Shown one piece after another: positions 9,751-50,193 of a stretch of DNA of 50,193 nucleotides (position 1 is its first letter; each line of letters starts with the position of its first letter). Source of the stretch: Saccharomonospora iraqiensis subsp. paurometabolica YIM 90007 (GTDB lineage: Bacteria > Actinomycetota > Actinomycetes > Mycobacteriales > Pseudonocardiaceae); NCBI RefSeq assembly GCF_000231035.2, contig NZ_KI912196.1:75295-125487 (forward strand), written 5' to 3'. The notes beneath the pieces were generated by a model that ran no database searches, was not told the origin of the DNA, and saw only the letters and a list, made by a program, of their open reading frames with translations. Both the position numbers and the translations under genes were made by a program.

Positions 9751-9762
9751 CCCGACACCTCT

Positions 9763-9816: not shown

Positions 9817-9823
9817 GGCAAGT

Positions 9824-9842: not shown

Positions 9843-9957
9843 TTGACGGGCCGACAGCCCTGCCCATGCCCCGGTCGGTGCGCATCCGGCGGGCCGGGCA
9901 CGCCCGGCACGTCACCGGTCCGCCGGACCCTCCCGACCCGGCGGGACGTCCGTCCGG

Positions 9958-11504: not shown

Positions 11505-11512
11505 CTGGCGAC

Positions 11513-12352: not shown

Positions 12353-12431
12353 CCCGCGCCGTGCGACGAGAACGTCGCGACACCCGGCACGGATCGGCGG
12401 TACGACCGCATCGGTGGTCCAGACTGACAGC

Positions 12432-14821: not shown

Positions 14822-14839
14822 CGAGGGGACTCCGGTTCC

Positions 14840-14872
14840 GTTCCGTGGTGCACCACTTGGTTCCTGGTGCAC
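14840..14872. promoter_or_regulatory. Direct repeat GTTCC(G)TGGTGCAC between efflux and HxlR genes
   Basis: Copies at 14840-14853 (GTTCCGTGGTGCAC) and 14860-14872 (GTTCCTGGTGCAC), about 20 bp apart, in the shared intergenic region. The first contains the perfect palindrome TGGTGCACCA (14846-14855). Two sites one to two helical turns apart fit a dimeric HxlR repressor; binding is inference. Confidence 0.55.
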
Positions 14873-14930
14873 GGTTTGTTACCGGGTCTATCGTGTGTGA
14901 CTATGACGGTTCGCGGAAGGAGGCACTTTC

Positions 14931-15341: not shown

Positions 15342-15402
15342 TCTGGCGCCCCTCCTCGGCCGCCGGCGGCTCGTCGTGCAGACTGCCCGCGTCGCCGGAA
15401 CG

Positions 15403-16920
15403 CTACGGACGGCCCGGGACAGTATCCCTCTCGACCGGCTCGGGTGCTGCGGTACTGACCGAACGGTGGCGCCTGCCGGTGTACCAGGCGATCGCGCCGC
15501 AACACAGCGCGAGCACAGCCACCGCGATGAGCACGTCGGTGGTCGAGGCCACAATGGAGGACAGCACCAGGGGGCCGGTGAGGCCACCGAGGCGGTTGAA
15601 GAACGACACCCCGCCGGTGACGCGTTCGCGGGAACCCGCGTCGGCGAGATCGGCCGCGATCGGCAGAAAGATCGCGGCCATGGTGTTGACCGCGAACAGT
15701 GCTGCCGCGAGCACCGCGGCCGACAACCACGACACCGCCGACGCGAGCCCGGACGCGGCCAGTGCCAGCAGCACGACCGCCGTGCCCGTCGCCAGCAGGA
15801 CCGCCAGTCTGATCGGCCCGACCCGCCGATAGCAGACCGCGACCAGTATCGCGCACGGCACCATCACCACCGCCACGACGGTGAGCAGCGTGTTGGCGGT
15901 CATCACGGAGAGCCCACCCGCGCGGGCGAGTGTGGGTATCCAGGTGTTCAGGCCGAATGTCAGCACACCGACCGTCGCCGCGTAGATCGCCTGAAGCCGC
16001 AAGGTGAACGCGAGCCGCGCCGTCCGGTGTGTGTCTGCCGGCATGCCCGACCCCTCGGGCGCTGCCATGGCCGACCGGTCCCCGACCTGTGGCGACACGC
16101 GCCGTTCCGGGATGAGCACGGTCGCCAGTGCCAGGAGCAGTCCCGTCGGCGCGCCGGTGAGCCAGAGGATCCGCCAGCCGAATCCCGGTTCCAACCAGAG
16201 CGCGGACCCGGCCGCGACCAGATAGCCGGTGGCGGTCGCCACCACCGACAGCGCGATCACCGTCGAGCCGCGCGCAGGCCCCGGGGACACGTCCAGCAGA
16301 GTCGTGATCAACAACGGCGCCAGGCCGCCCACCGCGACCCCCATCAGCAAGCACATCACCACATTGCCGAGGAAGGTGGGCATCGTCGCGCACATGCTCG
16401 TCGCGGTGAATCCCAGTGTGGTGATCAGGTAAGACGCCCGGCGCCCGATCCGGTCGGCGAGCCGCCCCACGCACACCGCGCCGAGAGCGGTCCCGGACAG
16501 CCCGGCCACCGCCAACATCGACGCCTCGGCCGGCGCCAGCCCGTACTCCACACTCATTCCGGGGATCACGAAGCCCAGGGTCGAGGTCTTACTGACATCG
16601 ATCGTCAGCGCACCGGTCGCGACCCCGGCGACCAACCACCGTCTCCGCTTCCCCGGCACGGCCGACGCCGTGGTGCCGACGACCCGGAACCCACCCCACC
16701 GCGAGTGGGTGCGCAACAGCATCCCGACCAGGGCGATCACGATCCCGACACCCGCGACGAACATCTCCGGCATACCCGACAACGGCATACCCCGCAGCGG
16801 TCCGCCTTCCGGCGGAAACGCCCGGAAGAAGCCGACGACGGAACCGCCCACGGCGAGAACCACGCCGACCACCGTCACCGGGTCACGCGAATACCGCAGG
16901 AGAGACCGCGCCACAACCAT
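15403..16920 (-). CDS. MFS transporter with extra N-terminal helices (metabolite:H+ symporter type)
   Basis: 505 residues. An N-terminal pair of hydrophobic segments (VTVVGVVLAVGGSVVGFF; EMFVAGVGIVIALVGMLL) precedes the 12-helix MFS core, which begins RRWLVAGVATGALTIDVSKT. Core motifs are GRLADRIGRRASYLI (loop 2-3) and IPERR. The overall pattern resembles aromatic-acid or metabolite:H+ symporters (AAHS/MHS). The extension of about 90 residues is atypical, and a fused DUF or a small membrane protein is possible. ATG at 16920 with GGAAGGGG close upstream; GTG two codons on has better spacing. No functional partner is adjacent. Confidence 0.8.
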   Translation of the reverse strand: MVVARSLLRYSRDPVTVVGVVLAVGGSVVGFFRAFPPEGGPLRGMPLSGMPEMFVAGVGIVIALVGMLLRTHSRWGGFRVVGTTASAVPGKRRRWLVAGVATGALTIDVSKTSTLGFVIPGMSVEYGLAPAEASMLAVAGLSGTALGAVCVGRLADRIGRRASYLITTLGFTATSMCATMPTFLGNVVMCLLMGVAVGGLAPLLITTLLDVSPGPARGSTVIALSVVATATGYLVAAGSALWLEPGFGWRILWLTGAPTGLLLALATVLIPERRVSPQVGDRSAMAAPEGSGMPADTHRTARLAFTLRLQAIYAATVGVLTFGLNTWIPTLARAGGLSVMTANTLLTVVAVVMVPCAILVAVCYRRVGPIRLAVLLATGTAVVLLALAASGLASAVSWLSAAVLAAALFAVNTMAAIFLPIAADLADAGSRERVTGGVSFFNRLGGLTGPLVLSSIVASTTDVLIAVAVLALCCGAIAWYTGRRHRSVSTAAPEPVERDTVPGRP

Positions 16921-17363
16921 CCCCTTCCGACGGAGCGGTTTCGCCTGCCGCGACGCACCGTCCGATCCGAACCTCGTCCGACCTCACCGTCGAGCGCTGC
17001 TGCCGTCACGGTATTGGCATTCACGCGGAACCACAATGTCGTCGCGGCATTCCCGTGCGAGGGGAGCAAACCGGCTGCCTTTCGGACACTCCCGGGCGTC
17101 GATCCGGAACCTCCGACCGCGATCGGACGAGAGTCGATCCCGTCGGGCCTGTCAATGACTCCGCGGAGTCCGGGCCCGCGTGCGCGGACCGCGAGCGGGC
17201 CACAGCTCGGAGCGGGACCGAGGAGCGGTCCTGGGGAGAAGGCCGGATCGGCCGATGTCCGCGGAGGCTGATCGGCTCCGGGACGCGTCACGACGACACG
17301 TCGATCAGTGACTCGCGATCGGCTGGGAGAGGTGCGTGGGACCGTCCGCGGGACGAGATGGCG
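16921..17363. other. Intergenic region, no gene seen
   Basis: 443 bp between the MFS start and the end of the LLM gene on the same strand. Open frames here extend from or mirror neighbouring genes and lack domain features. I see no strong dyad or terminator hairpin. Confidence 0.4.
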
Positions 17364-18263
17364 TCAGCGCCGGGCGGCCCGCAGCACCCGGTCGACGATC
17401 TCCAGCGCCTGTTCAACCGTGCCTGCCAGGTTCATCAGCTCCACGAAGACGTGGTCGATACCGGTATCGGGTCCGGCCGAGGCGACAGCATCGAGCACGC
17501 CGTCCATCGACTCCGTACCCCAGGGATAAACCCGCAGGACGGTGTCCAGCTCCGCCGGATCCCGCCCCGCCTCCCGGGCGAGCTCGCGGATCCGGGTCAT
17601 CGGTTCGGTGACCTCGGCGGGATCGAACGGACCCCATTCCGGGACATGGGCCGGGAGCCAGCCGTCCGCCCGCTGTGCCACCCGCCGCATCGCCGTCGGC
17701 GCCCAGCCCGCGAGATACACGGGTGGACGGGGCTGCCGGGCGGGTTTGAGGTCGACCCGGCTCGCGGGGACGGTCCAGTGCTTCCCGGAATACTGCACGG
17801 GATCGTCCGACCACCAGGCCTGCACCACGTCGAGACACTCGTCGAGCCGGGCGCCACGCTCGTGCATCGGGACACCCGCGGCCCGGTACTCCTCGGGGGA
17901 CCAGCCGGTACCGAAACCCACGAGCAACCGGCCGCCGCTGACACGGTCGATCGTGGTCAGGGACCGGGCCAGCATCGCGGGTGCGTACCAGGGTCCGACC
18001 AGGACATTCGTCCCGATCTCGACCCGCTCGGTCACCGCCGCCGCCGCGGACATCACGGCGAACGGATCCAGCACCCGGTGGAAGACCTCCGGTATCGTGT
18101 CCCCACCGGCGTAACCGACGGTGGGCTCCACCGGCGTCAGCAGCCGGTCGCCGACCCAGAGACTGTCCGCACCGAGACGCTCGGCCTCCGCCGCGAAGTG
18201 CATCACCTCCCGCGCCTCCTCCGCGAGCGGACCGAACTGCGGCAGCGTGAAGCCGATACGCAC
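17364..18263 (-). CDS. LLM-class F420-dependent oxidoreductase
   Basis: 299 residues, a luciferase-like TIM barrel: MRIGFTLPQFGPLAEEAREV (start), GADSLWVGDRLLTPVEPTVG, ERVEIGTNVLVGPWYAPAMLA (about 80-100), GRLLVGFGTGWSPEEYRAAGV and MHERGARLDECLDVVQAWW. The GFGTGW loop and sequence style match the F420-dependent actinobacterial subfamily, which oxidises or reduces small organics with coenzyme F420; the substrate is unknown. GTG at 18263 is preceded by GGGGG. A degenerate fragment of a close paralogue lies at 19066-19125, beyond the VOC gene. Confidence 0.9.
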   Translation of the reverse strand: MRIGFTLPQFGPLAEEAREVMHFAAEAERLGADSLWVGDRLLTPVEPTVGYAGGDTIPEVFHRVLDPFAVMSAAAAVTERVEIGTNVLVGPWYAPAMLARSLTTIDRVSGGRLLVGFGTGWSPEEYRAAGVPMHERGARLDECLDVVQAWWSDDPVQYSGKHWTVPASRVDLKPARQPRPPVYLAGWAPTAMRRVAQRADGWLPAHVPEWGPFDPAEVTEPMTRIRELAREAGRDPAELDTVLRVYPWGTESMDGVLDAVASAGPDTGIDHVFVELMNLAGTVEQALEIVDRVLRAARR

Positions 18264-18638
18264 CCGTACCCCCTGAGCTGTCGGTGCTGATCCTCGGGCC
18301 GTGGTGACCGCCCGGAACGGGTACCCATCGTGGCAGCGGGGCGCGCGGCCCTCAATCACCCTTCCGTGGCGACGAACGGAAGTCCGTCGCTCTGCCCACC
18401 GGGGCACGCAGTGTTCGTGGTTCCGCAATCCTCGAATCGACGTCACGGATTTCCGGGAAGCCCGGACCCTGGTGTCCCGTGCGCCTGTCGGATCGATGCG
18501 TGAATTGGCCCCCCAGGACCGTTCCGGACCATTCGTTCGGGCGTGGCTCAATTGACAGCATAATCTGTCGAATGGAGGATAATCTCGTGACCAGCGGGCT
18601 CCACCACGGACGCGGTCCAACAGGAAAGGCGCGACACC
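18264..18638. promoter_or_regulatory. Divergent promoter region with GACAG-N6-CTGTC dyad
   Basis: 375 bp between the LLM and VOC starts, AT-rich around 18540-18590. TTGACA (18552-18557) is a consensus -35 overlapping the dyad GACAG-CATAAT-CTGTC (18554-18569). GATAAT (18578-18583) is a possible -10, but the 20-bp spacing is long. A dyad over the -35 suggests repression; the regulator is unidentified. Confidence 0.45.
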
Positions 18639-19046
18639 ATGACGGACGGCACCATCGGCACCATCGTCGGCTTCGACCTCACGGTGCGGGACGCACCGGC
18701 CGTGCGGGACTTCTACGCCGACGTCGTCGGCTGGAAACCCGAACCGCTCAGCATGGGCGACTACGACGACTACATGATGCTGACCCCGGACGGCACACCG
18801 GTGGCCGGTGTGTGCCACGCGAAGACCGAGAACGCGGACCTCCCCCCGCAATGGGTCACCTACATCGCCGTCGGCGATCTCTCCGCGAGCATGGACCGGG
18901 TCACCGCCCGGGGCGGTGAAGTACTGCGGGCGCCGAACGGGTACGGCCCGGGCGGATTCGCACTCGTCAAGGATCCCGCGGGAGCGGTGCTCGCACTGAT
19001 GCAGAACCCGTACGGCGGCTCGGACGCCGGCGACGCGGAGAGTTGA
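18639..19046 (+). CDS. VOC-family (glyoxalase/dioxygenase-like) protein
   Basis: 135 residues forming two beta-alpha-beta-beta-beta modules: GFDLTVRDAPAVRDFYADVVGWK (9-31), WVTYIAVGDLSASMDRVTARGGEVLRAP (72-99) and FALVKDPAGAVLALMQN (ending the second module). Small stand-alone VOC proteins of this type act as glyoxalase-, bleomycin-resistance- or lyase-like proteins. Metal ligands are not obvious, since the usual His/Glu positions are poorly conserved. ATG with GGAAAGG about 10 nt upstream. It diverges from the LLM gene. Confidence 0.88.
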   Translation: MTDGTIGTIVGFDLTVRDAPAVRDFYADVVGWKPEPLSMGDYDDYMMLTPDGTPVAGVCHAKTENADLPPQWVTYIAVGDLSASMDRVTARGGEVLRAPNGYGPGGFALVKDPAGAVLALMQNPYGGSDAGDAES

Positions 19047-19065
19047 CGCGCATGTCGTGAGGCCC

Positions 19066-19125
19066 GGGCTGGCTCCACCGGCGCCAGGAGGCGGTCGGCC
19101 ACCCTCAGGCTGTCCGCCACGACCC
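19066..19125 (-). pseudogene. Fragment of an LLM oxidoreductase paralogue
   Basis: The minus strand reads ADSLRVADRLLAPVEP, nearly the same as ADSLWVGDRLLTPVEP in the intact LLM gene at 17364-18263, for about 16 codons and then diverges. No start or domain remains. It is a short relic of a duplicated or transferred copy. Confidence 0.6.
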
Positions 19126-19173
19126 ACGGCAGCACGGGACGCATGTCCGGCGCGGAGGCCCGCGTCGTGTGCC

Positions 19174-19968
19174 TCAGCTCCGAAGCACGAAGGACTCCCG
19201 GGCGAGCGCACTTCCGTAGGCCGCACGGTCGAGGAAGTCGTAGGTTCCCCCGGTCCGCAGTTCCCGTGCCGCCTCCGCCAGCGCCTGGTAGGCGGTGAAG
19301 GCGAACCCTCCGCCCACGGAGACCCGCCGCACCCCGAGCTCGGCGAGTTCGCCCACCGGAGGAACCCCCGGCCGCGCGAGCACGTTGACCGGGACGTCCA
19401 CCGCCTCGACCAGCGCCCTGATCTCCTCCCGGCCGGTGAGCCCCGGCGCGTACACGACGTCCGCATCGGCCTCCCGGAAAGCACGAAGCCGCGCGAGGGT
19501 GTCGTCGAGGTCGTCGACACCCCGGAAGTGGTTCTCCGCCCGCGCGGTCACCACCAGCTGCCCCTCGGCCGCCTCCACGGCGGCGCGCACCCGCTCGCCC
19601 GCCAGATCCCGGTCGTAGAGCGCGGTACCACTCCAGTCCTCGACCGACACCCCGGCCACCCCGGTGTCCCGCGCCCGCCGGACCGTGTCGGCCACCCCCT
19701 CCGGGTCGTCGGCGAAGCCGTTCTCCAGGTCCGCCGAGACCGGGACGTCCACCGCACCGGCGAGTTCGGCACAGTGGGCCAACACCTCGTCCCGGCCGAG
19801 GGCGCCGTCCGGCAGACCCCGTGCCGCCGCGGCTCCGCTGCTGGTGGTGGCCACCGCGCGGAAGCCCAGATGCCGTAGCAGCACCGCCGACCCCACGTCC
19901 CAGGCGTTCGGCAGCAACAGGACATCCCCGGAGTGGTGCAGCGCGCGGAAATGCTCGAAGTCGGACAT
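19174..19968 (-). CDS. Isocitrate lyase / PEP mutase superfamily protein
   Basis: 264 residues: FRALHHSGDVLLLPNAWDVGSA (6-27), FRAVATTSSGAAAARGLPDG, DVPVSADLENGFAD (about 80-93, carrying the acidic metal ligands of the family), VAGVSVEDWSG, LVVTARAENHFRG and VPVNVLARPG. This is the 2-methylisocitrate lyase/phosphonomutase-like 'PEP mutase' family of stand-alone actinobacterial enzymes, acting on C-C or P-C bonds of an oxaloacetate-like substrate with Mg2+. The exact substrate cannot be assigned. ATG at 19968 matches the family N-terminus; an in-frame GTG at 19998 is the alternative. Confidence 0.88.
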   Translation of the reverse strand: MSDFEHFRALHHSGDVLLLPNAWDVGSAVLLRHLGFRAVATTSSGAAAARGLPDGALGRDEVLAHCAELAGAVDVPVSADLENGFADDPEGVADTVRRARDTGVAGVSVEDWSGTALYDRDLAGERVRAAVEAAEGQLVVTARAENHFRGVDDLDDTLARLRAFREADADVVYAPGLTGREEIRALVEAVDVPVNVLARPGVPPVGELAELGVRRVSVGGGFAFTAYQALAEAARELRTGGTYDFLDRAAYGSALARESFVLRS

Positions 19969-20080
19969 GGCGCGGACGATAGCGGACACCACCGACACCG
20001 GCGGCGAATCACGCCGATATCGGGCTCTCTCGGCACGGGGCCGACTTCTCTTTCCCCGGATCGTGTGCGAGTCTGCACCG

Positions 20081-21325
20081 ATGGGGGATACCGTCCGCCG
20101 CCCGCTCGGGGTCGCCTACCGGTGGCTGTGGACCTCGTCCGGGTTGTCCAACCTCGCCGACGGGGTCGTCAAGGTCGCGCTGCCGCTGGTGGCGATCCAG
20201 TACACCCGGTCGCCCACGCTGATCGCGGGACTGGCCGTCGCGCTGGTGCTGCCGTGGCTGCTGTTCGCCCTGCCCGCCGGTGCGTTCGCCGACCGGTTCG
20301 ACCGTCGCCGGATGATGCTCGGCGCCAACACCGTGCGGATCGTGCTGTCCGCGGCCGGAATCCTGGCGGTCGCGCTCGACGCCGGCTCGATCTGGCTCCT
20401 CTACGGGATCGCGTTCGGTCTCGGCACCGCCGAGACGGTGTACGACACCTCCGCGCAGTCGATCATGCCGCGGATCGTGGAGCGTGATCAACTGTCCCGG
20501 GCCAACAGTCGCCTGTTCGGGGTCGAGCTGACGACCAACCAGTTCGTCGGCCCGCCGCTGGCCGGTCTCCTGGTGGCGGCCGGGGTGGCCGTCACGTTCG
20601 CGGCCCCCACCGCGTTGTGGGGCCTCGCCCTGGTGGCGCTGCTGTTCGTGCGCGGCTCGTTCGGGACGGCGGAGACGGGCGGGCGCACCAGCCTACGGAC
20701 CGACATCGCCGAAGGACTGCGGTTCCTCTGGCGGCACCGGCTGCTCCGGACGCTCGCCGTACTCACCGGGACGGTCAACTTCGCGACGAACGCGGCGTTC
20801 ACCGTCTTCGTCCTGTTCGCGGTCGGCCCGTCCTCCGCCATGGGGCTCTCCGAGCCCGCCTACGGGGTCCTGTTCGCCACCACCGCGGTCGGCAGCCTGA
20901 TCGGCTCGCTCGTCGCCGAGCGGGTCGAACGGACACTCGGGCGGGCCCGCACATTCCGACTGGCCCTGCTCACCAGCGCGCTGCTGGTCGGCATCCCGGC
21001 GGTGACCACCAACCCGGTCCTGATCGGTGCCGCGTTCTTCACCGGGGGCGTCGGGATCATGCTGTGGAATGTCATCGCCGTCTCCCTGCGCCAGCGGATC
21101 ACGCCGGACCGGTTGCTAGGCCGCCTGAACAGCAGCTACCGCTTGCTCGCCTTCGGTACGCAACCGCTCGGGGCCCTGGCCGGGGGTGCGATCGCCGAAG
21201 TCGTCGGGCTGCGCTGGGTGTTCGGCACCATGGCGCTGCTGGTCCTGCTCGCCCTGCTGGGCGGCGCGAGGGCCCTGACCGACGACACCATGAACGCGGC
21301 CGAACGGGACACCGCTCAGGTCTGA
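20081..21325 (+). CDS. MFS exporter (MFS_3 / EntS-like)
   Basis: 414 residues with 12 helices: WLWTSSGLSNLADGVVKVALPLVA (helix 1), ALPAGAFADRFDRRRMMLGAN (motif A), GTAETVYDTSAQSIMPRIV (a signature of the enterobactin-exporter-like MFS_3 group), RANSRLFGVELTTNQFVGPPLAG and ITPDRLLGRLNSSYRLLAFG. Members export siderophores, macrolides and similar compounds. ATG at 20081; no strong ribosome site. The neighbouring AraC gene on the opposite strand converges with it. Confidence 0.9.
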   Translation: MGDTVRRPLGVAYRWLWTSSGLSNLADGVVKVALPLVAIQYTRSPTLIAGLAVALVLPWLLFALPAGAFADRFDRRRMMLGANTVRIVLSAAGILAVALDAGSIWLLYGIAFGLGTAETVYDTSAQSIMPRIVERDQLSRANSRLFGVELTTNQFVGPPLAGLLVAAGVAVTFAAPTALWGLALVALLFVRGSFGTAETGGRTSLRTDIAEGLRFLWRHRLLRTLAVLTGTVNFATNAAFTVFVLFAVGPSSAMGLSEPAYGVLFATTAVGSLIGSLVAERVERTLGRARTFRLALLTSALLVGIPAVTTNPVLIGAAFFTGGVGIMLWNVIAVSLRQRITPDRLLGRLNSSYRLLAFGTQPLGALAGGAIAEVVGLRWVFGTMALLVLLALLGGARALTDDTMNAAERDTAQV

Positions 21326-25634: not shown

Positions 25635-26986
25635 GCACCGGAGAGCTGAGCGAGGCGCTGGCCGCGCGGTTGGGCGAGATCTCCGCGCGCCCGGTCCGGG
25701 TGACGCGGCTGGAGCAGGCCACTGGCGGGGCGAGCCGGGAGACCTGGTTCGTCGAACTCGACCACCCGCCGCACCGCCTCGTGCTGCGCCGGGATCCGGT
25801 CGGCCGGTCCGATCCCGACGGGATGGCACGCGAGGCGGTGGTCCTCCGCGCCGCCGAGCAGGCCGGGGTCGCGGTACCCCGCGTGGTGGACCACGGCGTC
25901 GACGACACGGTGCTGGGCTCACCGTACGTGCTCACCGGCCATGTGGACGGCGAGACGATACCCCGGCGTCTGCTGCGGGACGACGCCTACGCCGGGGCCC
26001 GCGCGGGACTGGCCCGCGAACTCGGCAGGTGCGCCGCGCGGATCCACCGGATCCCGATCCCGGACGGCGTGCCGGAACACGACCCGTTGGACCAACTCCG
26101 CACCGAGTACGACGACCTCGACGATCCCGTGCCCGCCCTGGAGATCGCGTTCCGGTGGCTGCACGCGAACCGGCCGACCGACTCGCGCAGAACCCTCGTG
26201 CACGGGGACTTCCGCAACGGCAACCTGATCGTCGACGAACACGGCCTGCGGGCCGTGCTGGACTGGGAGCTCACCCACGTCGGCGACCCGATCGAGGACC
26301 TGGGCTGGCTGTGCACGAAGGCGTGGCGCTTCGGCTCACCGCTGCCGGTCGGCGGATTCGGCGGGCGCGACGAACTCCTCGACGGCTACGCCGAGGTCGC
26401 CGGGGAACGACCGGACCCGGACGTGCTGCGCTGGTGGGAGATCTACGGCACCGCCAGGTGGGGCGTGCTCTGCCGGTCGCAGGCGGAACGGCACCTCAGC
26501 GGGGCGAGCCCGTCGGTGGAGCTCGCGGCGATCGGTCGCCGGGTCTGCGAACAGGAACACGACCTGCTCGTGGCCCTGGGTATCCCGGAACCGGCGTCCC
26601 CACCGGAACAGGTCGCCGACGCCGCCTCGGACCTGCACGGCAGCCCCTCGGCGGCGGAGCTCGTCGCCGCGGTCCGGGATTTCCTACGGGACGACGTGCG
26701 CGCCGAAACAGAGGGGAGAACGCGCTTCCAGGCCCTGGTGGCCGCCAACGCGCTGGCCACCGTGGAACGCGAACTGCGGTTCGGTGCGAACCAGGAGCGC
26801 CGCCACCGGGAACGGCTCGACGAACTCGGCCTCCCCGACCGCGCCGCCCTCGCCGCGGCGCTGCGGAGCGGCGAGGCGGACCCGTGGGACCCGGACGTGG
26901 CCGCCGCGGTGTGGGCGGACGTGCTGGACCGGCTGGCGGTGGCCAACCCGCGGCACCGGACCACCGACGACCACGGTGCTGCCTGA
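25631..26986 (+). CDS. APH-type acyl-CoA kinase with C-terminal DUF6285-like domain
   Basis: 451 residues. Residues 10-300 are an aminoglycoside-phosphotransferase-like kinase: HRLVLRRDPVGRS (ATP lysine region replaced by Arg as in this subgroup), catalytic loop LVHGDFRNGNLIVDEHG (about 191-207) and metal-binding VLDWELTHVGDPIEDLGWLC. After a linker (about 325-345) comes a helical domain, SAAELVAAVRDFLRDDV and QALVAANALATVERELRFG (348-410), matching DUF6285. In the levulinate pathway a kinase (LvaA) works with a small accessory protein and an acyl-CoA dehydrogenase to phosphorylate and remove a 4-hydroxyl. Here the accessory-like domain seems fused to the kinase. GTGA overlap with the upstream ACAD. 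Confidence 0.85.
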   Translation: MSTGELSEALAARLGEISARPVRVTRLEQATGGASRETWFVELDHPPHRLVLRRDPVGRSDPDGMAREAVVLRAAEQAGVAVPRVVDHGVDDTVLGSPYVLTGHVDGETIPRRLLRDDAYAGARAGLARELGRCAARIHRIPIPDGVPEHDPLDQLRTEYDDLDDPVPALEIAFRWLHANRPTDSRRTLVHGDFRNGNLIVDEHGLRAVLDWELTHVGDPIEDLGWLCTKAWRFGSPLPVGGFGGRDELLDGYAEVAGERPDPDVLRWWEIYGTARWGVLCRSQAERHLSGASPSVELAAIGRRVCEQEHDLLVALGIPEPASPPEQVADAASDLHGSPSAAELVAAVRDFLRDDVRAETEGRTRFQALVAANALATVERELRFGANQERRHRERLDELGLPDRAALAAALRSGEADPWDPDVAAAVWADVLDRLAVANPRHRTTDDHGAA

Positions 26987-33616: not shown

Positions 33617-33814
33617 TGACCACTCCTCCCGCAGCGTTGCGACCGGACGGTATCAGGTTTCCGGCGCTTAACGCGAAAAGTATTCACCAGGGGGTCAGAG
33701 CGCCGCGCCACGCCGACCGGTCCCGTTCACCCGGCCGATTCCGGTGTCCCCTCGGGCGGGTCAGATCGCGTGAGGTGGACCGGACCGTCGTCCCGGTGGT
33801 CGATACTTCCTGCC

Positions 33815-34661
33815 ATGCCTGATCCTGCGGACCGTGCTCTCGCCCACGTGGCGTCGCTGGCCACCGGCGGTCCGGTGGATCCGTCGTTGCGGGTGACACT
33901 GCACTTCCACCCCGATCGCCTGGTGTCCGGGGTCCCGATCCTGGACAGCATGGCCCACGACGGCGTGTACCGGTCGCAGTTCGAAACCGGGACGAGCAAC
34001 GGGGGACTGACGGGCGCACCCGGGCGGTGACCGCTGGAGATGGGAGAGTCGGATCTTCGCCGGAGCCTACGACGAGGCGCCGCCGGCCGACCGGCCGAAG
34101 TACGGATCGTTGAACCACCGCCGCCGCGTGGTCGGCGGCTCGCCGCGGTTCGGCTCGGCGCATCTGCGGCTGGCCCACCACACCCTGGCCCGCACCACGT
34201 TCTGTTACCCGGACAGCGCGTTCGAACCGCGACACTTCGGTGTCGCGTCGGCGCTCTCGGCGCTGATCTCGCTGGCCGAGGACGACGACCCGGATCCGCT
34301 CGACGACTACGTCGAGGCCCAGGTGCACGGTTCGGTCGAGCTGGACCGGGACGTCGAGGCACTGGTGCTCGACCCCTGCTATCGCGGCACCTCGGTGGAG
34401 GCCGCCGCGAACCGGCTGGCGTGCCCGGTCGAATGGCACAGCGGATTCACGCTGACCACCACCGAACTGCGCGCCCACCCCGACTACCGGGGTCCCGGTT
34501 TCGTGCGCCTCGGTGAGTCCCTGGCACGGGCCGGCCGCCTGAACCCCCGGATCCTCGGCGACGCATCGCGGAGCGGACACCACGACGGGCAGGGGCTCAA
34601 ACGCGTGTGGCATTACCTCGCGCGGTTCGGCTGCGCCGAGCTCGCGTCGGCGGATCCGTAG
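33815..34661 (+). pseudogene. DUF3626 protein, disrupted by a one-base frameshift
   Basis: ATG at 33815 opens MPDPADRALAHVASLATGG, and the frame runs through RVTLHFHPDRLVSGVPILD and VYRSQFETGTSNGGLTG to a TGA at 34028. Shifting by one base near 34021-34024 restores GGDRWRWESRIFAGAYDEAP, PKYGSLNHRRRVVGGSPRFG, LDPCYRGTSVEAAANRL and FGCAELASADP to the TAG at 34659-34661. The joined product (about 280 residues) is a standard DUF3626 protein of unknown function. One extra G in the run CCCGGG explains the shift. It is either a real loss or a sequencing error. Confidence 0.85.
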
Positions 34662-34704: not shown

Positions 34705-35058
34705 CTAGTCGACGATGGTGGTGAGTCCTTCGTGACCGTGGCCTGATTCGATGCGTCGCCGGACGAGGCGGTGGACGTGGTCGAGGGCACCGTTACCGAG
34801 ATTCTGGTCGGCCCGCAGCTGCAGGATCCTTTCCAGCACAGGCTCGTGCTCGGTCAGATCGGCCGGACCCCGCGGGAAGACCCCGGTGCTGACCTCGTGT
34901 GCGGTGGCGGCGGTGGCGTCGGCGACGTGACCCAGCTGTTCCGCGGCCAACGGAGCGAAGTCCTCGACGTCGGGTATCGCGAGCACATGCACGGTCGCCC
35001 GCGTCTTCGGTCTCGCCAACACCGACCGCCTCGCCGTCGCGGCACCGGTTGCGGGCAC
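34705..35058 (-). CDS. Hypothetical protein
   Basis: 117 codons in a frame with C/G-biased third positions, unlike random shadow frames. The body reads VHVLAIPDVEDFAPLAAEQL (about 23-42) and then LTEHEPVLERILQLRADQNL and LDHVHRLVRRRIESGHGHEG. The start is uncertain; ATG at 35058 or an internal GTG near 34990 would both work, and no ribosome site is clear. No domain is recognised. It lies upstream of and divergent from the TetR gene. Confidence 0.4.
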   Translation of the reverse strand: MPATGAATARRSVLARPKTRATVHVLAIPDVEDFAPLAAEQLGHVADATAATAHEVSTGVFPRGPADLTEHEPVLERILQLRADQNLGNGALDHVHRLVRRRIESGHGHEGLTTIVD

Positions 35059-35085
35059 GCACGTGGGACCGTAGCATCAGGGCAG

Positions 35086-35119
35086 TTGCACAGGACACTT
35101 GCACAGTACGTTTGCACAG
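35086..35119 (+). promoter_or_regulatory. Three direct repeats TTGCACAG with 13-bp period
   Basis: TTGCACAG at 35086-35093, 35099-35106 and 35112-35119, each followed by 5 variable bases. They lie 25 nt before the TetR start at 35144. The first copy could serve as a -35 (TTGCAC) with TACGTT (35107-35112) as a weak -10. This is a strong candidate operator array, likely for the adjacent TetR protein. Confidence 0.65.
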
Positions 35120-35143
35120 CTCGCAGACGGGAAGGGGAGCGCG

Positions 35144-35701
35144 ATGTCTCCAGCGGCGTCCCGGGGGTGGGAGGTGCGGCAGCGGCTGCTGACGGCGGCG
35201 GCCGAGCTCATTCCCGAGCGTGGGTGGTCGGCGGTGAGCACGCGGAATCTCGCCGAGCGCGCCGGGGTGAACCCGAGCGTGGTGCATTACCACTTCCCCT
35301 CCCTGCCCGCGTTGCTCAACGAAGCGGTACTCGGGATTCTGCGGCAGGTGCTGGGCGAGGTGGACACCGTCCTGGACAACGCGCGGACCCCGGCCGAGGC
35401 GGTCGAGGCGGTCGTCTCCGCCGCACAGCGCTACACCGGGGACGACCCGACCTCGCTGCTGGCCATCGAGGCCTACCTGGCCGCCGCACGGGGAGAACCA
35501 CTCCGCGACGAGGTCGGCGGGATGGTCGCCGAGTTCCGGCACCGGTTCGGCCGCTGGCTGGGCGAGCACGGTGTGCCCGACCCGGAGACGACCGCCGGGC
35601 TCGTACTGGCCACGGTCGACGGGCTGCTCCTGCACCGCGGGATGGGCGCAGGCATGGACACCGACCCGACCGCCGCGGTCCTGCGCCGGCTGGTCGGTTA
35701 A
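35144..35701 (+). CDS. TetR-family transcriptional regulator
   Basis: 185 residues. The N-terminal HTH reads RQRLLTAAAELIPERGWSAV then STRNLAERAGVNPSVVHYHF (recognition helix about 34-50). The C-terminal ligand domain is helical, with LLAIEAYLAAARGEPLRDEV and TTAGLVLATVDGLLLHRGMG. ATG at 35144 with GGGGAG 5 nt upstream. It is followed after 21 bp by a flavin monooxygenase on the same strand and preceded by three direct repeats. It probably represses this two-gene operon until a substrate of the monooxygenase binds. Confidence 0.93.
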   Translation: MSPAASRGWEVRQRLLTAAAELIPERGWSAVSTRNLAERAGVNPSVVHYHFPSLPALLNEAVLGILRQVLGEVDTVLDNARTPAEAVEAVVSAAQRYTGDDPTSLLAIEAYLAAARGEPLRDEVGGMVAEFRHRFGRWLGEHGVPDPETTAGLVLATVDGLLLHRGMGAGMDTDPTAAVLRRLVG

Positions 35702-35722
35702 CCACCACGGAGGGAGAACACC

Positions 35723-36910
35723 ATGAAAGTGGTCGTCTGCGGGGCCGGACTCACCGGTCTGACCCTGGCGAATCGCGTCTCCACCCTCGGGGGCGAGGTC
35801 GTGCTGCTGGAACGCGCCCCCGCCCCGCGCGAACAGGGCTACATGATCGACTTCTTCGGCCCGGGCCACGAAGCTGTCGAGGCCATGGGACTGCTTCCGG
35901 CGGTCGAAGAGATCGCCCATCCCCTGGCGAAGGCGGATCTCGTCGACGAGGGCGGCCGGCGCCGCGCGACCGTGCGGCCCGGGCAGATCGCCCGCGGGCC
36001 GTTGCTGAACCTCATGCGGCCCGACCTGGAGCGGGTGCTGCGCGAGCACCTGCCCCCGGCGGTCGACCTGCGGTTCGGCACCACCCCGGTGGCCGTGGAC
36101 GAGCACGACGACGGTGTGCGGGTCACCCTCGACGACGGCACCGCACTCGACGCCGACCTGCTCGTCGGTGCCGACGGGATCCACTCGACCGTGCGGCGAC
36201 TGGTGTTCGGGCCCGAGGAACGGTTCCTGCGCCTTCTCGGCTTCCACACCGCGGCGTTCGCGTTCGAGTCCCCGCGGATCCATGCGCAGGTGCGGGGCCG
36301 GGCCTGCCTCACCGACACGGTCGACCGGCAGATGGGCTTCTACGCACTCGGCGGGGACCGCGTCGTGGCCTTCGGCGTGCACCGAACGCCGGATCCGGAC
36401 TTGCCGGAGGACCCACGGGCGGCGGTGCGCGAGGCCTACGGTGGCCTGGGATGGGTCGTGCCCGAGGCGCTCGACCGGTGCCCGCCCCCGTCCGAGATCT
36501 ACTACGACCAGGTCGCGCAGACCGTGCTGCCCCGCTGGCACCGGGGACGGGTCGTGCTCGCCGGAGATGCCTGCTACGCCGTCTCGCTGGTGGCAGGCCA
36601 GGGCACGTCCCTGGCGATCGCCGGTGCCTACCTGCTGGCCGAGCAACTCGCCCGCACGCCCTCCGTCGAGGACGCACTCGCGCGGTACGAGCGATTGTGG
36701 CGCCCGGTGGCCGAGGAAAAGCAACGTGTCGGCCGGTCCGGTGCCGGGCGGTTCGTGCCCGCGACGAAGCGGCAGCTGTGGATACGGCGGGGCGTGCTCC
36801 GGCTGTCGCGGCTGCCGCTGATCGACCGCTCCGTGGCGGCGGCCCTGACGGGCGACTCCCCGTCGCTGCACGCGACACTCCACCGAGCCGAGAGCAACCC
36901 TACCGCCTGA
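35723..36910 (+). CDS. FAD-dependent monooxygenase, Tet(X)-like
   Basis: 395 residues: FAD site VVVCGAGLTGLTLANRVSTLG (3-23) then VVLLERAP, REQGYMIDFFGPGHEAVEAMGL, NLMRPDLERVLREHLP (Arg at the re-face), DADLLVGADGIHSTVRRLVFG (DG motif about 145-165) and GRVVLAGDACYAVSLVAGQG (GD motif about 272-291). It is related to tetracycline-inactivating and other class A hydroxylases; the actual substrate is unknown. Strong ribosome site GGAGGGAG. It is co-transcribed with the TetR gene upstream, which argues for an inducible detoxification role. Confidence 0.9.
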   Translation: MKVVVCGAGLTGLTLANRVSTLGGEVVLLERAPAPREQGYMIDFFGPGHEAVEAMGLLPAVEEIAHPLAKADLVDEGGRRRATVRPGQIARGPLLNLMRPDLERVLREHLPPAVDLRFGTTPVAVDEHDDGVRVTLDDGTALDADLLVGADGIHSTVRRLVFGPEERFLRLLGFHTAAFAFESPRIHAQVRGRACLTDTVDRQMGFYALGGDRVVAFGVHRTPDPDLPEDPRAAVREAYGGLGWVVPEALDRCPPPSEIYYDQVAQTVLPRWHRGRVVLAGDACYAVSLVAGQGTSLAIAGAYLLAEQLARTPSVEDALARYERLWRPVAEEKQRVGRSGAGRFVPATKRQLWIRRGVLRLSRLPLIDRSVAAALTGDSPSLHATLHRAESNPTA

Positions 36911-36994
36911 CCAAGGAAGCACGCGCCGGAAAAACCCGTGGATTCGATACCGCTGGCGTCGGGCGGGCGGCTCACTCCGCCGACCCGCGCGCGG

Positions 36995-37294
36995 TCAGGA
37001 GACCAGCAGCCGATGCTCGTCCGACCCGATCGCCCGGAGCAGTTCCGACCGGGCGATCGTGTGCGGGCCGCATTCACAACTGGCGGGCAGCGCGTCGTCG
37101 ACCGTCACGTCCGCCTTCGGGTCGAGCAGATCCACGACCTCCATCCCGTGCGCGGCATCATGGTGCGCAGCGTCGACGAAATCCCTCGAACCGTGCGCGT
37201 GTGGCCCGCTGCGTGCGACGTAGACCAGACCCTCGTCCGTGTCGTAGACAGTAGCCACGTGATGGCTCTCCGCGCACTGCACCCGGAGCTTCAC
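36995..37294 (-). CDS. Small Cys/His-rich conserved protein
   Basis: 99 residues from GTG at 37294 (frame open to 37417). The sequence reads VKLRVQCAESHHVATVYDTD, GLVYVARSGPHAHGSRDFVD, AAHHDAAHGMEVVDLLDPKA and PASCECGPHTIARSELLRAI. Cys8 with His11/His12, and Cys-x-Cys later, look like a zinc-ribbon or metal-binding pattern; many small Pseudonocardiaceae proteins share it. Function is unknown. It diverges from the nicotianamine synthase, with 442 bp between; a metal-related link is possible but unproven. Confidence 0.6.
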   Translation of the reverse strand: MKLRVQCAESHHVATVYDTDEGLVYVARSGPHAHGSRDFVDAAHHDAAHGMEVVDLLDPKADVTVDDALPASCECGPHTIARSELLRAIGSDEHRLLVS

Positions 37295-37736
37295 ATGCCG
37301 GTTGGGCTGCTCGAGTGCCTGTACGGCGTTCCGAGCCGCCGTACGTCTCTTCGCCGGAGTGCCGTAAACCTTCTGTACCACCGTCGACTCCGTCCGCTGT
37401 GGGTCACACAAAGCCACCGAGCCTCGTGCCCGGACACGTTCAGCATCCGCCGCACCCAGCCCCCGGTGAAGGGGCCGGAAGTCCCTGTCCCGGGGCCCGG
37501 GAACGCCGGTTCCGCGGCGTACGGCTCTTACTCACGCCGAGCCACCGGGCAACGACCCGGCCAACATCGAGGACGTGCCCACGTCTCCGCCGACTGGTAC
37601 CGGGCGGTCCTGGATTTCGCCCACGGCACGCCATCGATCGTGCAGACCGCCCCGCCCGATCGACCCGGCGAGGTGCAGACCAGTCGCGGGCCCGTCACCG
37701 CGGGTCGTGAGCCCAGCTTCCATACACTGCTCATGC
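37295..37736. other. Intergenic region before nicotianamine synthase
   Basis: 442 bp. TACACT (37723-37728) ends 8 nt before the GTG at 37737 and looks like a -10 giving a leaderless message. A plus-strand frame near 37587-37650 reads SADWYRAVLDFAHGTPSIVQ, which faintly recalls the start of PAP2 phosphatases; with no continuation I treat it as a possible remnant. No clear dyad for a metal regulator was found. Confidence 0.4.
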
Positions 37737-38639
37737 GTGACCGACACACAATCCGATGTCTCCAGGGCATCGAAGACGATCCCGCAACCCGGCCTCGTCG
37801 CCCGTCTCGCCGAGCTCGACGATCGGCTCCGGGCCACGGACTTACGGCCTTCCCCCGAGGTCGACGACGCCTTCGGTCGTCTCGTGGAGCTGTGTACCGT
37901 GGTCGACGACGAACTCACCGGGCAGGTTCTCAACGACCCGTCCGCCAAGCCGCTCATCGCCTCGCTGCGCTCGGTCAGCGCCCGTGGCGAAAAGGAGCTG
38001 GAACACGCCTGGGCCCACCGCATCATCGCCGCCGACGACCCTTGGGCCGAGCTCCAACAGTTCCCCTACCTGGACAACTACCACCGCCTCGTCCGCTTCG
38101 AGCTCGCCGGGCTCACCGCGGTCGGCGCGTCCCACCCCAGCTCAGCGGTCATCCTCGGCGCGGGCCCGCTCCCGCTCACGGGCCTCGTCCTGGCCCAGTG
38201 CCACGGCGTGGAAGTCACCAACGTCGACAATGACGCCGACGCCTGCGACCTCGCCTTCGCCGTGAACGAAGCGCTCGGTGTCGCCAAGCAGATGAGTACC
38301 GTCTGCGCCGACGCCCGCGCCGCGGGCGATCTCCCCGGCCTGGCCGAAGCCGACATCGTGCTGCTCGCGGCCCTGGCCGGCGATGACCCCACCGCCAAGC
38401 GCGGCATCACCCGAGGGCTCGCCGGGGGTATGCATCCGCACGCGCTCCTGCTCGCCCGCTCGGCCCATCGGCTTCGTACCGCGCTCTACCCGCCCGTCTC
38501 GCCCGACGACCTGAACGGCTTCACCCCGCTCGTCGAGATGCATCCCTGCGACGACGTCGTCAATTCCGTCCTCATCGCACGTCCCACTCCGCGCGAACCG
38601 GACTCGCAGGCGTGGACCGGGACCGGCTACGCCGCCTGA
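37737..38639 (+). CDS. Nicotianamine synthase
   Basis: 300 residues matching the NAS family (PF03059) across its core: AELQQFPYLDNYHRLVRFEL (about 104-123), SAM-binding VILGAGPLPLTGLVLAQ (about 137-153), VTNVDNDADACDLA, DIVLLAALAGDD (about 206), LLLARSAHRLRTALYPPV (about 235-252) and HPCDDVVNSVLIAR (about 267-280). NAS enzymes join aminocarboxypropyl groups from S-adenosylmethionine to make nicotianamine or, in CntL-type bacterial forms, add one group to an amino acid to build opine metallophores for Ni, Co, Zn or Cu. No opine dehydrogenase, racemase or importer lies beside it here. GTG start, probably leaderless. Plant enzymes are similar in length. Confidence 0.92.
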   Translation: MTDTQSDVSRASKTIPQPGLVARLAELDDRLRATDLRPSPEVDDAFGRLVELCTVVDDELTGQVLNDPSAKPLIASLRSVSARGEKELEHAWAHRIIAADDPWAELQQFPYLDNYHRLVRFELAGLTAVGASHPSSAVILGAGPLPLTGLVLAQCHGVEVTNVDNDADACDLAFAVNEALGVAKQMSTVCADARAAGDLPGLAEADIVLLAALAGDDPTAKRGITRGLAGGMHPHALLLARSAHRLRTALYPPVSPDDLNGFTPLVEMHPCDDVVNSVLIARPTPREPDSQAWTGTGYAA

Positions 38640-38767
38640 CCGAAGGCTCGGTGGGTGCCCGCGACCCTCTCGCTGACGCTCGGTCCGGAGCTGTGGCGCC
38701 TCAGCGTCCCCTACACCGTCGTGTTCCTCGCGCTCGCTGCCCGACACGGTCCCCGGTCCGTGCCCGT

Positions 38768-39652
38768 TCAGATCAACAGTCCGTGCCGCCGGGCGGTGGC
38801 GACAGCGTCGTGGCGGGTGTGGACGCCGAGTTTGCGGCAGGCGCTGCGCAGGTAGGCCTTGACGGTCTCGGAGCTCAGGCCGAGCCGGTGCGCCGCCTCG
38901 GCGCTGGTGCACCCCAGGGCCACGTAGGAGAGCACGTCGACCTCCCGGGAGGACAGCCGGGGCACCGGGGCGGCCCGGCCCGCTCCCTCCGCGTGGGCGT
39001 CGTGTTCGACGCGGGTGAAGCACTCGCACGCGCGCCGGAGCCGTTCGCGGATCGCGGCGTCGTCGACGTCGTGGGCGATGCCCCGGAGTTCGGCGTGCAG
39101 GTCGCGCAGCTCGTCGAGCGTCACCGGAGGCGGAGCCTCCTCCCGGCGGGGACGGTGGGCGGCGTCGAGGAGAGCGATCCGGCGGTCGACCTCGTCGCGG
39201 ACGGCGAGCTCGCCCGCGAGGCGCCGCGAGACCTCCCCCAGCGCGGCGGTCGCGCGGTCGCCGAGCGGGTGGACGTCGCGGACGGCGGCGTAGAGCACCC
39301 CGCGCACGCCCCCGTGCACGGCCACCGGCGTCGCCACGATGGAACGGATCCCCTCACCCTGCACCGGGTCGTCGTAGTCGTGGGTGATGGTGGTGGCGGG
39401 GACGTAGTCGGTCACTGCGTGCGGTCGGCCGCGTTCGAGGACGACGCCCCCGAGGCCGCGCCCCCGCTGCACCCGCAGTCCCCGGATCGCGTCGGTGCGG
39501 GCGCCCGCGAACTCCGTCAGCCGCAGCCCGTCCGCGCCCACCCGACCGCCGAAGACCAGGGGAAGCCCGGTCTCGCGCCGCGCGAGGCGGACGCAGTGCC
39601 GGAACGCGTCCCCGTCGTCGGGGCGCATCGATTGCCGGTGCGGTGCGGGCAC
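38768..39652 (-). CDS. GAF-domain LuxR-family regulator
   Basis: 294 residues. About 10-170 is a GAF-like sensor (FRHCVRLARRETGLPLVFGG, QRGRGLGGVVLERGRPHAVT, GIRSIVATPVAVHGGVRGVL). A helical linker follows, and the LuxR HTH occupies about 228-290: LSSREVDVLSYVALGCTSAE, AAHRLGLSSETVKAYLRSAC, RKLGVHTRHDAV. GTG at 39652 has GGAGGGAGGGGG just upstream; the later ATG at 39628 lacks one. Such proteins often control aromatic or fatty-acid catabolism. It lies directly downstream of the acyl-CoA ligase on the same strand. Confidence 0.88.
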   Translation of the reverse strand: MPAPHRQSMRPDDGDAFRHCVRLARRETGLPLVFGGRVGADGLRLTEFAGARTDAIRGLRVQRGRGLGGVVLERGRPHAVTDYVPATTITHDYDDPVQGEGIRSIVATPVAVHGGVRGVLYAAVRDVHPLGDRATAALGEVSRRLAGELAVRDEVDRRIALLDAAHRPRREEAPPPVTLDELRDLHAELRGIAHDVDDAAIRERLRRACECFTRVEHDAHAEGAGRAAPVPRLSSREVDVLSYVALGCTSAEAAHRLGLSSETVKAYLRSACRKLGVHTRHDAVATARRHGLLI

Positions 39653-39710
39653 GGCCCCCTCCCTCCGACGCCGGGCCGACGGGTGACCTGGGACACGGCG
39701 AGCATACGGC

Positions 39711-41366
39711 TCAGCCCCGCCCGTCGTCACCGGCGGAGGCGAGGCCGAGTAGCTCGACGGCCCGTTCGCGCATCGCCACCTTGCGCACCTTGCCGGTGAC
39801 GGTCATCGGGAACTCGTCCACCACGTGCACGTAGCGGGGGATCTTGTAGTGGGCGAGGCGCCCGGCGCAGAACTCGCGCAGTGCCTCCGCCGTCAAGGTG
39901 GGCGCCGGGTCGCGGAGCTGGACCCACGCCATGAGTTCCTCGCCGTAGCGCTCGTCGGGCACGCCGATGACCTGCGCGTCGAGGATGTCCGGGTGGGTGT
40001 GCAGGAACTCCTCGATCTCGCGGGGGTAGATGTTCTCGCCGCCCCGGATGACCATGTCCTTGCTGCGCCCGGTGACGGCGACGTACCCCTCGTCGTCCAT
40101 CACGGCGAGGTCGCCGGTGTGCATCCACCGCGCGGCGTCGATGACCTCGGCGGTCTGCTCGGGCTGGTCCCAGTAGCCGAGCATGACCGAATAGCCCCGC
40201 GTGCACAGCTCGCCCGTGTGGCCGCGGGGCACGGTCAGCCCGGTGGCCGGGTCGACGATCTTGATCTCGAGGTGCGGCCCGACCCGGCCGACGGTGGACA
40301 CCCGCCGGTCCAGGGTGTCGTCCCGGCGGGTCTGCACGGACACCGGCGAGGTCTCGGTCATGCCGTAGCAGATGCTCACCTCGGCCATGTGCATCCGGTC
40401 GATGATCTGCCGCATCACCTCGGCCGGGCACGGCGAGCCGGCCATGATTCCGGTGCGCAGGCTGGTGAGGTCGTAGTCGTCGAAGCCGGACAGGGCGAGT
40501 TCAGCGATGAACATCGTCGGCACCCCGTACAGCGAGGTGCACCGTTCGGCCTCGACGGCGGCCAGCGTGGCCGCGGGGTCGAACGCGGGCGCCGGGATGA
40601 CCGTCGCGGCGCCGTGGCTGGTGGCCGCCAGGTTGCCCATCACCATGCCGAAACAGTGGTAGAAGGGCACGGGGAGGCAGATCCGGTCGGTCTCGTCGTA
40701 GCCGCACAGTTCACCGACGGAAAAGCCGTTGTTGAGGATGTTGTGGTGCGACAGCGTCGCGCCCTTCGGGAAGCCCGTGGTGCCCGACGTGTACTGGATG
40801 TTGATCGGATCGTCGGCGGACAGGGTGGCCGCGATGTCGGCGAGGCGGGTCCGGTCGGCCGCCCGTCCCCGCCGCCGGAGATCCTCCCAACCGTGCTCAC
40901 CGAGCAGCACGACGTCGGTGAGGTCGGGGCAGTCCGGCCGCACCCGCTCGATCATCGCCGCGTAGTCGGACGTCCGGTGACTCCGGGCGGCGATCAGGGT
41001 GCCGATCCCGGCCTGCCGGAGCACGTACTCCAGCTCGTGCACCCGGTAGGCGGGGTTGATGGTGACCAGCACTGCGCCGAGCCGCGCCGTCGCGTACTGC
41101 ACGATCGTCCACTCCGGGCAGTTGGGGGCCCAGATGCCCACCCGGTCGCCCTTGGTGACGCCGAGGTCGGCGAGGCCGAGCGCGACCACGTCGACCTCGT
41201 CGGCGAACTCCCGGTAGGTCCAGCGCCGTCCGGTCGCCACATCGACCACGGCCTCCCGCCCGCCGTGCGCGGCGACCGTGCGGGCGAGGTTGTCGCCGAT
41301 GGTGTCGCCGAGCAGCGGCACCGCCGACGGCCCGGACGCGTAACTCGGCGGCACGGGTGAGTCCAC
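39711..41366 (-). CDS. AMP-dependent acyl-CoA synthetase (FadD/MACS-like)
   Basis: 551 residues of the ANL superfamily: the phosphate loop [20 protein letters not shown] (about 190-209), [28 protein letters not shown] (A5, about 335), [20 protein letters not shown] (A7), [20 protein letters not shown] (hinge, about 438-457) and the catalytic lysine in [13 protein letters not shown] (about 530). It activates a medium- or long-chain acid to its CoA thioester with ATP. I choose GTG at 41366, which has GGAGG 5 nt upstream, over GTG 41378. It may feed acyl-CoA dehydrogenases elsewhere. Confidence 0.93.
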
Positions 41367-41464
41367 GATGACCTCCACGCATTGACGTCGATGGCGGCTC
41401 GTCAGGTCGTTCGACGCGACCCGGCGACCTCTTCATGAAGCACACACCCGCCCCCTCGCCGTGC

Positions 41465-41486
41465 GCTACCCCCGCCCGGGGGTAGC
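41465..41486. promoter_or_regulatory. Perfect palindrome GCTACCCCC-N4-GGGGGTAGC
   Basis: 9-bp arms with a 4-nt centre (GCCC), in the 297-bp region between the divergent acyl-CoA ligase and PPOX protein genes. The ACCCC/GGGGT core recalls CsoR-type copper operators, but no CsoR gene is near; a local repressor is equally possible. It could also form an RNA hairpin. Confidence 0.5.
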
Positions 41487-49560: not shown

Positions 49561-49815
49561 GAGTGTTCTCCTTTTCGGTTCCAGTACGGGGTACCCGCCC
49601 CCAAAGTAGATCAGACGGCCCGGATCAGGGCGCGGAACGTCCGGCCGTGAACACGGCCATCCACGACCGGAACACGCGTTCCGAATTCGTCCGGACCACC
49701 CCGGCTGCGAGACGGGGTACCCGGCGACCGCGGGGGCACGCCACGACGAGTTCCCGGTACGCTCGGTTCGCACGCGGATCCGAACGGATCACGTCGTCGG
49801 CCGAAGGAGGACCTC

Positions 49816-49863
49816 GTGTTCCCGACGCCCGACCGGCCCGGCGCGGCCGGCCTCATCCGATGA
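49816..49863 (+). CDS. 15-codon leader ORF overlapping the DUF2157 gene
   Basis: GTG at 49816 with GGAGGACCTC directly upstream encodes MFPTPDRPGAAGLIR, with TGA at 49861-49863 overlapping the ATG at 49860. The strong ribosome site belongs to this short frame, while the long gene has none of its own, so translational coupling is likely. It could instead be the original 5' end of the gene after a frameshift. Confidence 0.45.
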   Translation: MFPTPDRPGAAGLIR

Positions 49864-50193
49864 TGCGACGTGTGCCTCCCCGGCGCCGTGGTGACGACCT
49901 GACCGCCCGGCTGGACCGGTGGGTCGCGCACGGGTTGCTCACCCGCGAGCAGGCGGACCGCATCCTCGCAGCAGAGCGGGCGGGGCCCACCGGGAGCGGC
50001 GAGGAGACGGGCCGGACACCGTCGCCGGTCGCCGAGGCGCTGGGCTATGTCGGCGGCGTGCTCGTCCTCGTCGCCGTCGGGCTCGTCGCCGGCCGCTACT
50101 GGTCCGAACTGGGTGTCGCGGGCAGGCTCTCGATCGCCTTCGGCACCGCCGCACTGTTACTCGCGGCGGGAGCGAGCCTCCGGCCGCGCCTGG
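49860..50193 (+). CDS. DUF2157-like membrane protein (partial, runs off right edge)
   Basis: 111 residues are visible. A basic N-terminus (MMRRVPPRRRGDDLTARLDR) is followed by a short helical region WVAHGLLTREQADRILAAER, which is the DUF2157 pattern of a soluble segment that ends at the membrane. Then come VAEALGYVGGVLVLVAVGLV (first helix), AGRYWSELGV and SIAFGTAALLLAAGASLRPR (second helix). The function of DUF2157 proteins is unknown. ATG at 49860 or 49863; translation probably depends on the upstream leader ORF. Confidence 0.75.
   Translation, partial: MMRRVPPRRRGDDLTARLDRWVAHGLLTREQADRILAAERAGPTGSGEETGRTPSPVAEALGYVGGVLVLVAVGLVAGRYWSELGVAGRLSIAFGTAALLLAAGASLRPRL

Follow-up and report, generated by a model that had tools for sequence, protein, structure and literature searches.

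Nicotianamine is a metal ligand of plants and fungi, and the locus described here raises the question of what an enzyme of the nicotianamine synthase (NAS) family may be doing in an actinobacterium. An earlier note on this DNA saw no metallophore partners next to the gene, but its nearest homologues do have an importer, an exporter and Zur boxes. In the window, i.e. the whole stretch of 50,193 nucleotides that was analysed, the following features are relevant:

37737..38639, + strand: nas gene (nicotianamine synthase), 300 aa, GTG start, PF03059 match
37723..37728, + strand: -10-like hexamer TACACT, 8 nt before the GTG, which would fit a leaderless transcript
37506..38757, no strand: NAS-bearing segment of 1.25 kb with no counterpart at the corresponding site of the congener G200
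35723..36910, + strand: left neighbour, FAD-dependent monooxygenase (Pfam FAD_binding_3), syntenic in G200 and G185; conserved flank outside the system
38768..39730, - strand: right neighbour, GAF/LuxR regulator, RamA-like but under the RamA cut-off; conserved flank outside the system

A plant-type synthase and its predicted product

The reading frame at 37737-38639 (+) is open, its translation contains all three motifs that had been quoted as evidence for a NAS, and PF03059, the sole Pfam family matched above its cut-off, covers profile positions 8-270 of 276 with 173.3 bits (cut-off 27.1, E 8.5e-51), leaving a tail of 18 residues only; the assignment to the NAS family thus holds. A genome scan found the four nearest homologues, with 65-70% identity, in Allosalinactinospora lopnorensis (L002), Nocardiopsis coralli (L003), N. 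salina (L004) and Nocardiopsaceae bacterium YIM 96095 (L005), and these four proteins open with the same MT-T peptide at the N-terminus, in support of the GTG at 37737 as start. Pairwise omega between the window NAS and the four homologous genes is 0.28-0.31 (0.22-0.39 among the relatives themselves), i.e. the gene is under purifying selection.

The plant/CntL ancestry that had been proposed stands in its first half only. By its residues the enzyme has a plant/fungal-type core, whereas the CntL model NF033601 scores 21.3 bits over residues 69-184, against an equivalog cut-off of 350, and a filing of the protein as CntL/staphylopine-type was dropped on these figures. The closest solved sequence is that of the archaeal MtNAS (3fpe, E 2.2e-20), and when a predicted model of the window NAS and its four homologues (mean pLDDT 75, pTM 0.74) was compared with Foldseek, MtNAS ranked first and CntL next.

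For the key residues, 33 prokaryotic NAS rows (window included) were aligned with a partial MtNAS stretch and with an AtNAS1 sequence that agrees with nine published positions. In AtNAS1, E77 and Y106, which are common to MtNAS, are essential, and E73 and 206-VGMD-209 are also needed; the latter are conserved among nicotianamine-making or plant NAS and differ in microbial NAS-like proteins (Seebach 2023, PMC10248798). The catalytic glutamate and tyrosine are present in all 33 prokaryotic rows, the glutamate corresponding to E73 in 32 (window included; L044 has serine, MtNAS glycine), and the four-residue insert is filled in 32, with a two-residue gap in the archaeal L105. In the alignment with this AtNAS1, the window equivalents of E77, Y106 and E73 are E89, Y115 and E85, and the insert A214-D217 has the matching length and reads AGDD in place of VGMD. 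With plant/fungal NAS, here represented by this AtNAS1, the window protein thus shares PF03059, the catalytic pair, the E73 equivalent, an insert of four residues and the motifs HP-DDVVNSV-IA and RSAH-LR--LYP; it differs in being bacterial, in its AGDD and in having 18 residues after the PF03059 match. MtNAS, which makes thermonicotianamine, shares the fold and the catalytic Glu/Tyr but has neither the E73-type glutamate nor the insert, and its starter is glutamate (PMC10491745).

Overall, the window gene firmly qualifies as encoding a NAS-family aminocarboxypropyl transferase that is plant-type by its key residues and under constraint. Because the core is of the plant/fungal and not of the CntL type, true nicotianamine made from three SAM is favoured as the likely product: the enzyme would join three aminocarboxypropyl groups from SAM to give nicotianamine, releasing MTA. 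AGDD in place of VGMD leaves some doubt here, and the activity could differ.

Importer, exporter and Zur boxes beside related genes

In all four loci of the nearest homologues, NAS is divergent from five transporter genes in one common order (fused permeases, binding protein, MFS, ATPase, ATPase), i.e. a complete Nik/Opp-type ABC importer and an MFS exporter lie beside it. In L002 this set carries the Pfam domains SBP_bac_5, BPD_transp_1, ABC_tran and MFS_1; in L003-L005 some genes are hidden behind longer spurious frames in the ORF calling, which tblastn corrects. For the L002 binding protein, the nickel-binding Opp5A/NikA model comes closest with 195 bits (under its equivalog cut-off of 600), versus 43 bits only for CntA. 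An ArsR-type regulator and a P-type (E1-E2) ATPase, perhaps another metal locus, are found about 8 kb from NAS at 18800-20866 of L002.

These loci also carry boxes for the zinc regulator Zur. The Zur operator footprinted in Streptomyces coelicolor is TGAAAATGATTTTCA (7-1-7) as quoted in PMC2823685, and similar variation is described for mycobacterial Zur boxes (PMC4298942). Allowing up to three mismatches and either centre base, we scanned 33 stretches of 651.6 kb in total (the window, L002-L005, L031-L053 and five further stretches of the window's own genome, two of which overlap the window) and obtained 16 matches, 12 of them upstream of NAS in 10 loci, 3 upstream of a binding-protein gene and 1 elsewhere. 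In L002-L005 the predicted boxes, one mismatch from consensus, lie between NAS and the divergent ATPase gene and would serve both. Against 200 first-order Markov resamplings per upstream region, the match was equalled by no shuffle in 10 of 33 NAS upstream regions; matches were weaker at L041, L044 and L049 (1-7 of 200) and at L050 and L053 (14 and 16), and the remaining 18 regions, that of the window included, gave no Zur signal. About half of the sampled NAS genes are thus without a sign of Zur control. Matches to Nur boxes with 1-3 mismatches were scattered, absent from the window and without a clear pattern, and no DtxR-type box with five or fewer mismatches was found.

NAS genes without these transporters are common. 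When the five L002 transporter proteins were compared by tblastn (E limit 1e-25) with 31 stretches, 27 of them with NAS, matches were limited to L003, L004, L005 and, for the exporter alone, L046; 22 of the 23 further NAS regions thus match none of the five genes, a count that underestimates partners, as some of the stretches are short or break off close to NAS where the contig ends, and that leaves aside two NAS genomes with 3-kb contigs. Most of the NAS regions sampled lack the set. At L046 (G039, 9448-11649), in a clade distant from the window gene, a Zur-like box is followed by NAS and by an MFS gene that overlaps NAS by 4 bp and is 56% identical to the L002 exporter, which is missing in the sister L045.

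Two other groups of neighbours were seen among the sampled NAS genes. The clade of L041, L042, L048, L049 and L052 has similar genes around NAS (in L042 metallo-beta-lactamase-fold and CoA-binding proteins by Pfam; for the clade, by eye, an SDR and an oxidase subunit), with no match to the five L002 transporters and with Zur-like boxes of up to three mismatches in three of the five. L105 (5971-6735) lies on a plasmid of the haloarchaeon Halocatena marina, its annotated neighbours including neither a metallophore transporter nor a dehydrogenase.

The relatives' loci share their plan, i.e. NAS, MFS exporter and Opp/Nik ABC importer, with the cnt loci for staphylopine, pseudopaline, bacillopaline and yersinopine, whose CntL belongs to the same superfamily as the window NAS; they differ in that no CntM, the opine dehydrogenase, was found. 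PF10100 (CntM) gave no match in 30 NAS-bearing genomes (the window's own, those of L002-L005 and 25 further ones), and no opine dehydrogenase was seen among the scanned L002 neighbours; the genome search had no positive control, since the search of 396 genomes of the phylum yielded a single match, below the cut-off, and the absence of CntM is therefore suggestive only. In the relatives, the product would presumably be secreted and then reimported as a zinc or nickel chelate.

According to PMC7438024, CntM completes all four of the bacterial nicotianamine-like metallophores characterised, which are opines; the survey of zincophore loci in that paper also started from CntM, so that a NAS locus lacking it would by design escape notice. 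Actinobacterial NAS are already recorded in NAS gene-tree work (PMC12454661), the excerpts of which make no mention of Zur control or transporters; these proteins and the Halocatena plasmid NAS are prokaryotic members of the same family as the window NAS. Among the matches listed from open-licence PMC papers, none describes an opine-free Zur-linked NAS locus. A prior mention is possible; the opine-free arrangement of Zur, importer and exporter nevertheless looks new, while actinobacterial NAS as such are known.

A copy without Zur box or partner transporters

The earlier note had read the start of the window gene as a possible leaderless promoter without a metal box, and this picture is borne out. 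In L002 and L005, the hexamer TACTAT and then the GTG start come directly after a Zur-like box; at the position of this hexamer the window has retained TACACT, without the box. No Zur-like box with up to three mismatches occurs anywhere in the 50-kb window, and the best match in the 330 nt of the NAS promoter has seven mismatches and is equalled by 144 of 200 shuffles. In lacking the metal box, the window gene thus departs from each of its four nearest homologues.

Likewise, neither a dehydrogenase nor an ABC importer adjoins the gene, as had been observed before. A Pfam scan of 41 of the 45 called window genes (the small or end-cut frames 1-318, 13127-13312, 25987-26316 and 49563-50193 lay outside it) detected neither an opine dehydrogenase nor any importer part, and importer and exporter are absent within six ORFs of NAS. 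To its left are genes for a photolyase, an SDR, a DUF3626 protein in two pieces, a reductive-aminase (RedAm)-like fragment, a TetR regulator and the FAD monooxygenase; to its right follow the GAF/LuxR regulator, an acyl-CoA ligase, an LLM-type F420 oxidoreductase, an Atu4866-domain protein, an amidohydrolase, an HTH regulator, an SDR and a peroxiredoxin. The two DUF3626 pieces (33770-34030 and 34110-34661, +) correspond to N- and C-terminal parts of the profile, and G185 (L092) has one frame of 377 aa. Four MFS transporter genes, interspersed with flavin oxidoreductases and regulators, lie at 7173-21325, and an IS4/5-type transposase at 4866-5744.

Comparison with congeners delimits the segment that carries the gene. 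In G200, window positions 35077-37505 match at 90% and 38758-41485 at 95%, with 51 bp separating both matches. The site looks variable because G185 has 9.8 kb of other genes at the place of the window NAS (L092, 4872-14655). By eye, this G185 stretch contains molybdopterin/cytochrome-like oxidoreductase, proline dehydrogenase and P5C dehydrogenase-like genes, an SMR transporter and a TetR regulator. Direct repeats of at least 6 bp, as would mark a mobile element, are absent within 50 bp of each end of the 1.25-kb segment, where a single 6-bp inverted match was seen. For the leader (231 bp) and the trailer (118 bp), all matches were short and weak, with no Pfam match in the leader and no plasmid match for its 41-aa piece; searching plasmids with the whole segment returned the LuxR gene alone. 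GC3 of NAS is 0.867, versus 0.878-0.955 in seven neighbour genes.

Of 12 genomes sampled from the genus, only the window's own yielded a NAS; none was found in the 11 other members, three of which, including G200 and G185, are only 82-83% complete. Counting the own genome each time, the gene was detected in 26 of 200 genomes at the family level and 5 of 396 at the phylum level, two of the latter five being weak partial matches (L103 and L104) that were left out of further use. In a tree of 35 rows, including AtNAS1 and the partial MtNAS, L002-L005 and the window NAS form a five-member clade with 100/98 support, joined next by L043 at 96/92, and the position of the window NAS inside the five is weaker (93/75); L043 has a Zur-like box but none of these transporters nearby. 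The window NAS was likely gained as a single gene. Loss in the sister genomes is the less simple alternative, because the nearest homologues found sit in other genera and repeated losses would be needed.

Since these homologues have importer, exporter and Zur boxes and no opine dehydrogenase was found with them, the window gene can be read as an uncoupled copy of an opine-free system. It would probably have been acquired alone from a Zur-controlled NAS/MFS exporter/Nik-type ABC importer locus as found in Nocardiopsis and Allosalinactinospora, and would in this way have become uncoupled from both Zur and the transporters.

Intracellular ligand or secreted chelator

What, then, may the product do? 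Most likely it would stay inside the cell as a ligand for zinc, nickel or copper, in buffering or tolerance, rather than undergo secretion and reuptake, the one ground for this being that the operator and the dedicated exporter and importer are missing. Taken as a whole, the reading of a true nicotianamine synthase, acquired alone from a Zur-regulated opine-free locus and now giving an intracellular ligand, seems to us on balance probable, with product, direction of transfer and cellular role all being inferred.

The main rival is a shared or undetected transporter, i.e. nicotianamine would still be secreted and reimported via generic exporters, an own Opp/Dpp-type importer or partners encoded in DNA that the assembly does not cover. 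Relatives do couple NAS with import and export genes, the own genome has at least three Opp-type systems (contigs C49, C62 and C75), and export could fall to the four MFS transporters encoded 16-30 kb upstream of NAS. None of these MFS genes, however, was matched by the relatives' exporter at E 1e-25 (tblastn), and the three importer regions contain no Zur-like box. The earlier note had proposed to search the genome for an opine dehydrogenase and an importer. The former was not found, in a search without a positive control, and the best matches to the relatives' transporters are all partial (binding protein 28%, E 2e-10; permease 36%, 5e-20; exporter 29%, 2.6e-4), none of those listed being on the window's contig, in an assembly that is 91.9% complete and from which unlinked partners could be missing. 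As these are weak general matches only, the idea of orthologues elsewhere in the genome was dropped, and we regard continued secretion as rather unlikely. The window gene is the single NAS detected in this genome (82 contigs, with the completeness just given).

Less probable still is a shorter product, in which aminocarboxypropyl is transferred to an amino acid to give a CntL-like xNA/yNA or a thermonicotianamine-like compound instead of nicotianamine. Characterised prokaryotic NAS-like enzymes do work in this manner (PMC10491745, PMC10248798), but the score with the CntL model, the fold match that places MtNAS above CntL, the plant-type glutamate and the presence of an insert all speak against it for the window NAS, as does, within the limits of the genome search without a positive control, the lack of an opine dehydrogenase to use the intermediate.

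That the gene is a functionless relic, kept by chance after partner loss, would fit a copy that lacks both a Zur box and such partners and occurs in one of 12 genus members; with an intact frame, a protein that is not shortened, the low omega and a conserved -10-like hexamer, such a fate appears quite improbable. Finally, the closest thing to a partner near NAS, a RedAm-like gene at 34705-35058 (-) whose C-terminal domain lies 2.7 kb away and might stand in for an opine dehydrogenase, can be set aside almost completely, as it is truncated to 117 aa with its N-terminal half gone (280 aa in G185, L092, partly masked) and as no NAS was found in G185 (genome 83% complete).

For the actinobacteria in general, we tentatively propose an opine-free zincophore: Zur would govern the synthesis of unmodified nicotianamine, which a dedicated MFS protein would export and a Nik-type ABC system reimport, with the NAS gene also spreading alone to provide an intracellular, plant-like metal buffer. 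Thus, nicotianamine itself may serve some bacteria to retain zinc or to bring it in. Should the loci of the relatives function as predicted, the compound would be a bacterial zincophore as well, and actinobacterial NAS could show which role the family had before plants acquired NAS, with the window gene serving as a natural test of NAS function without its transporters.
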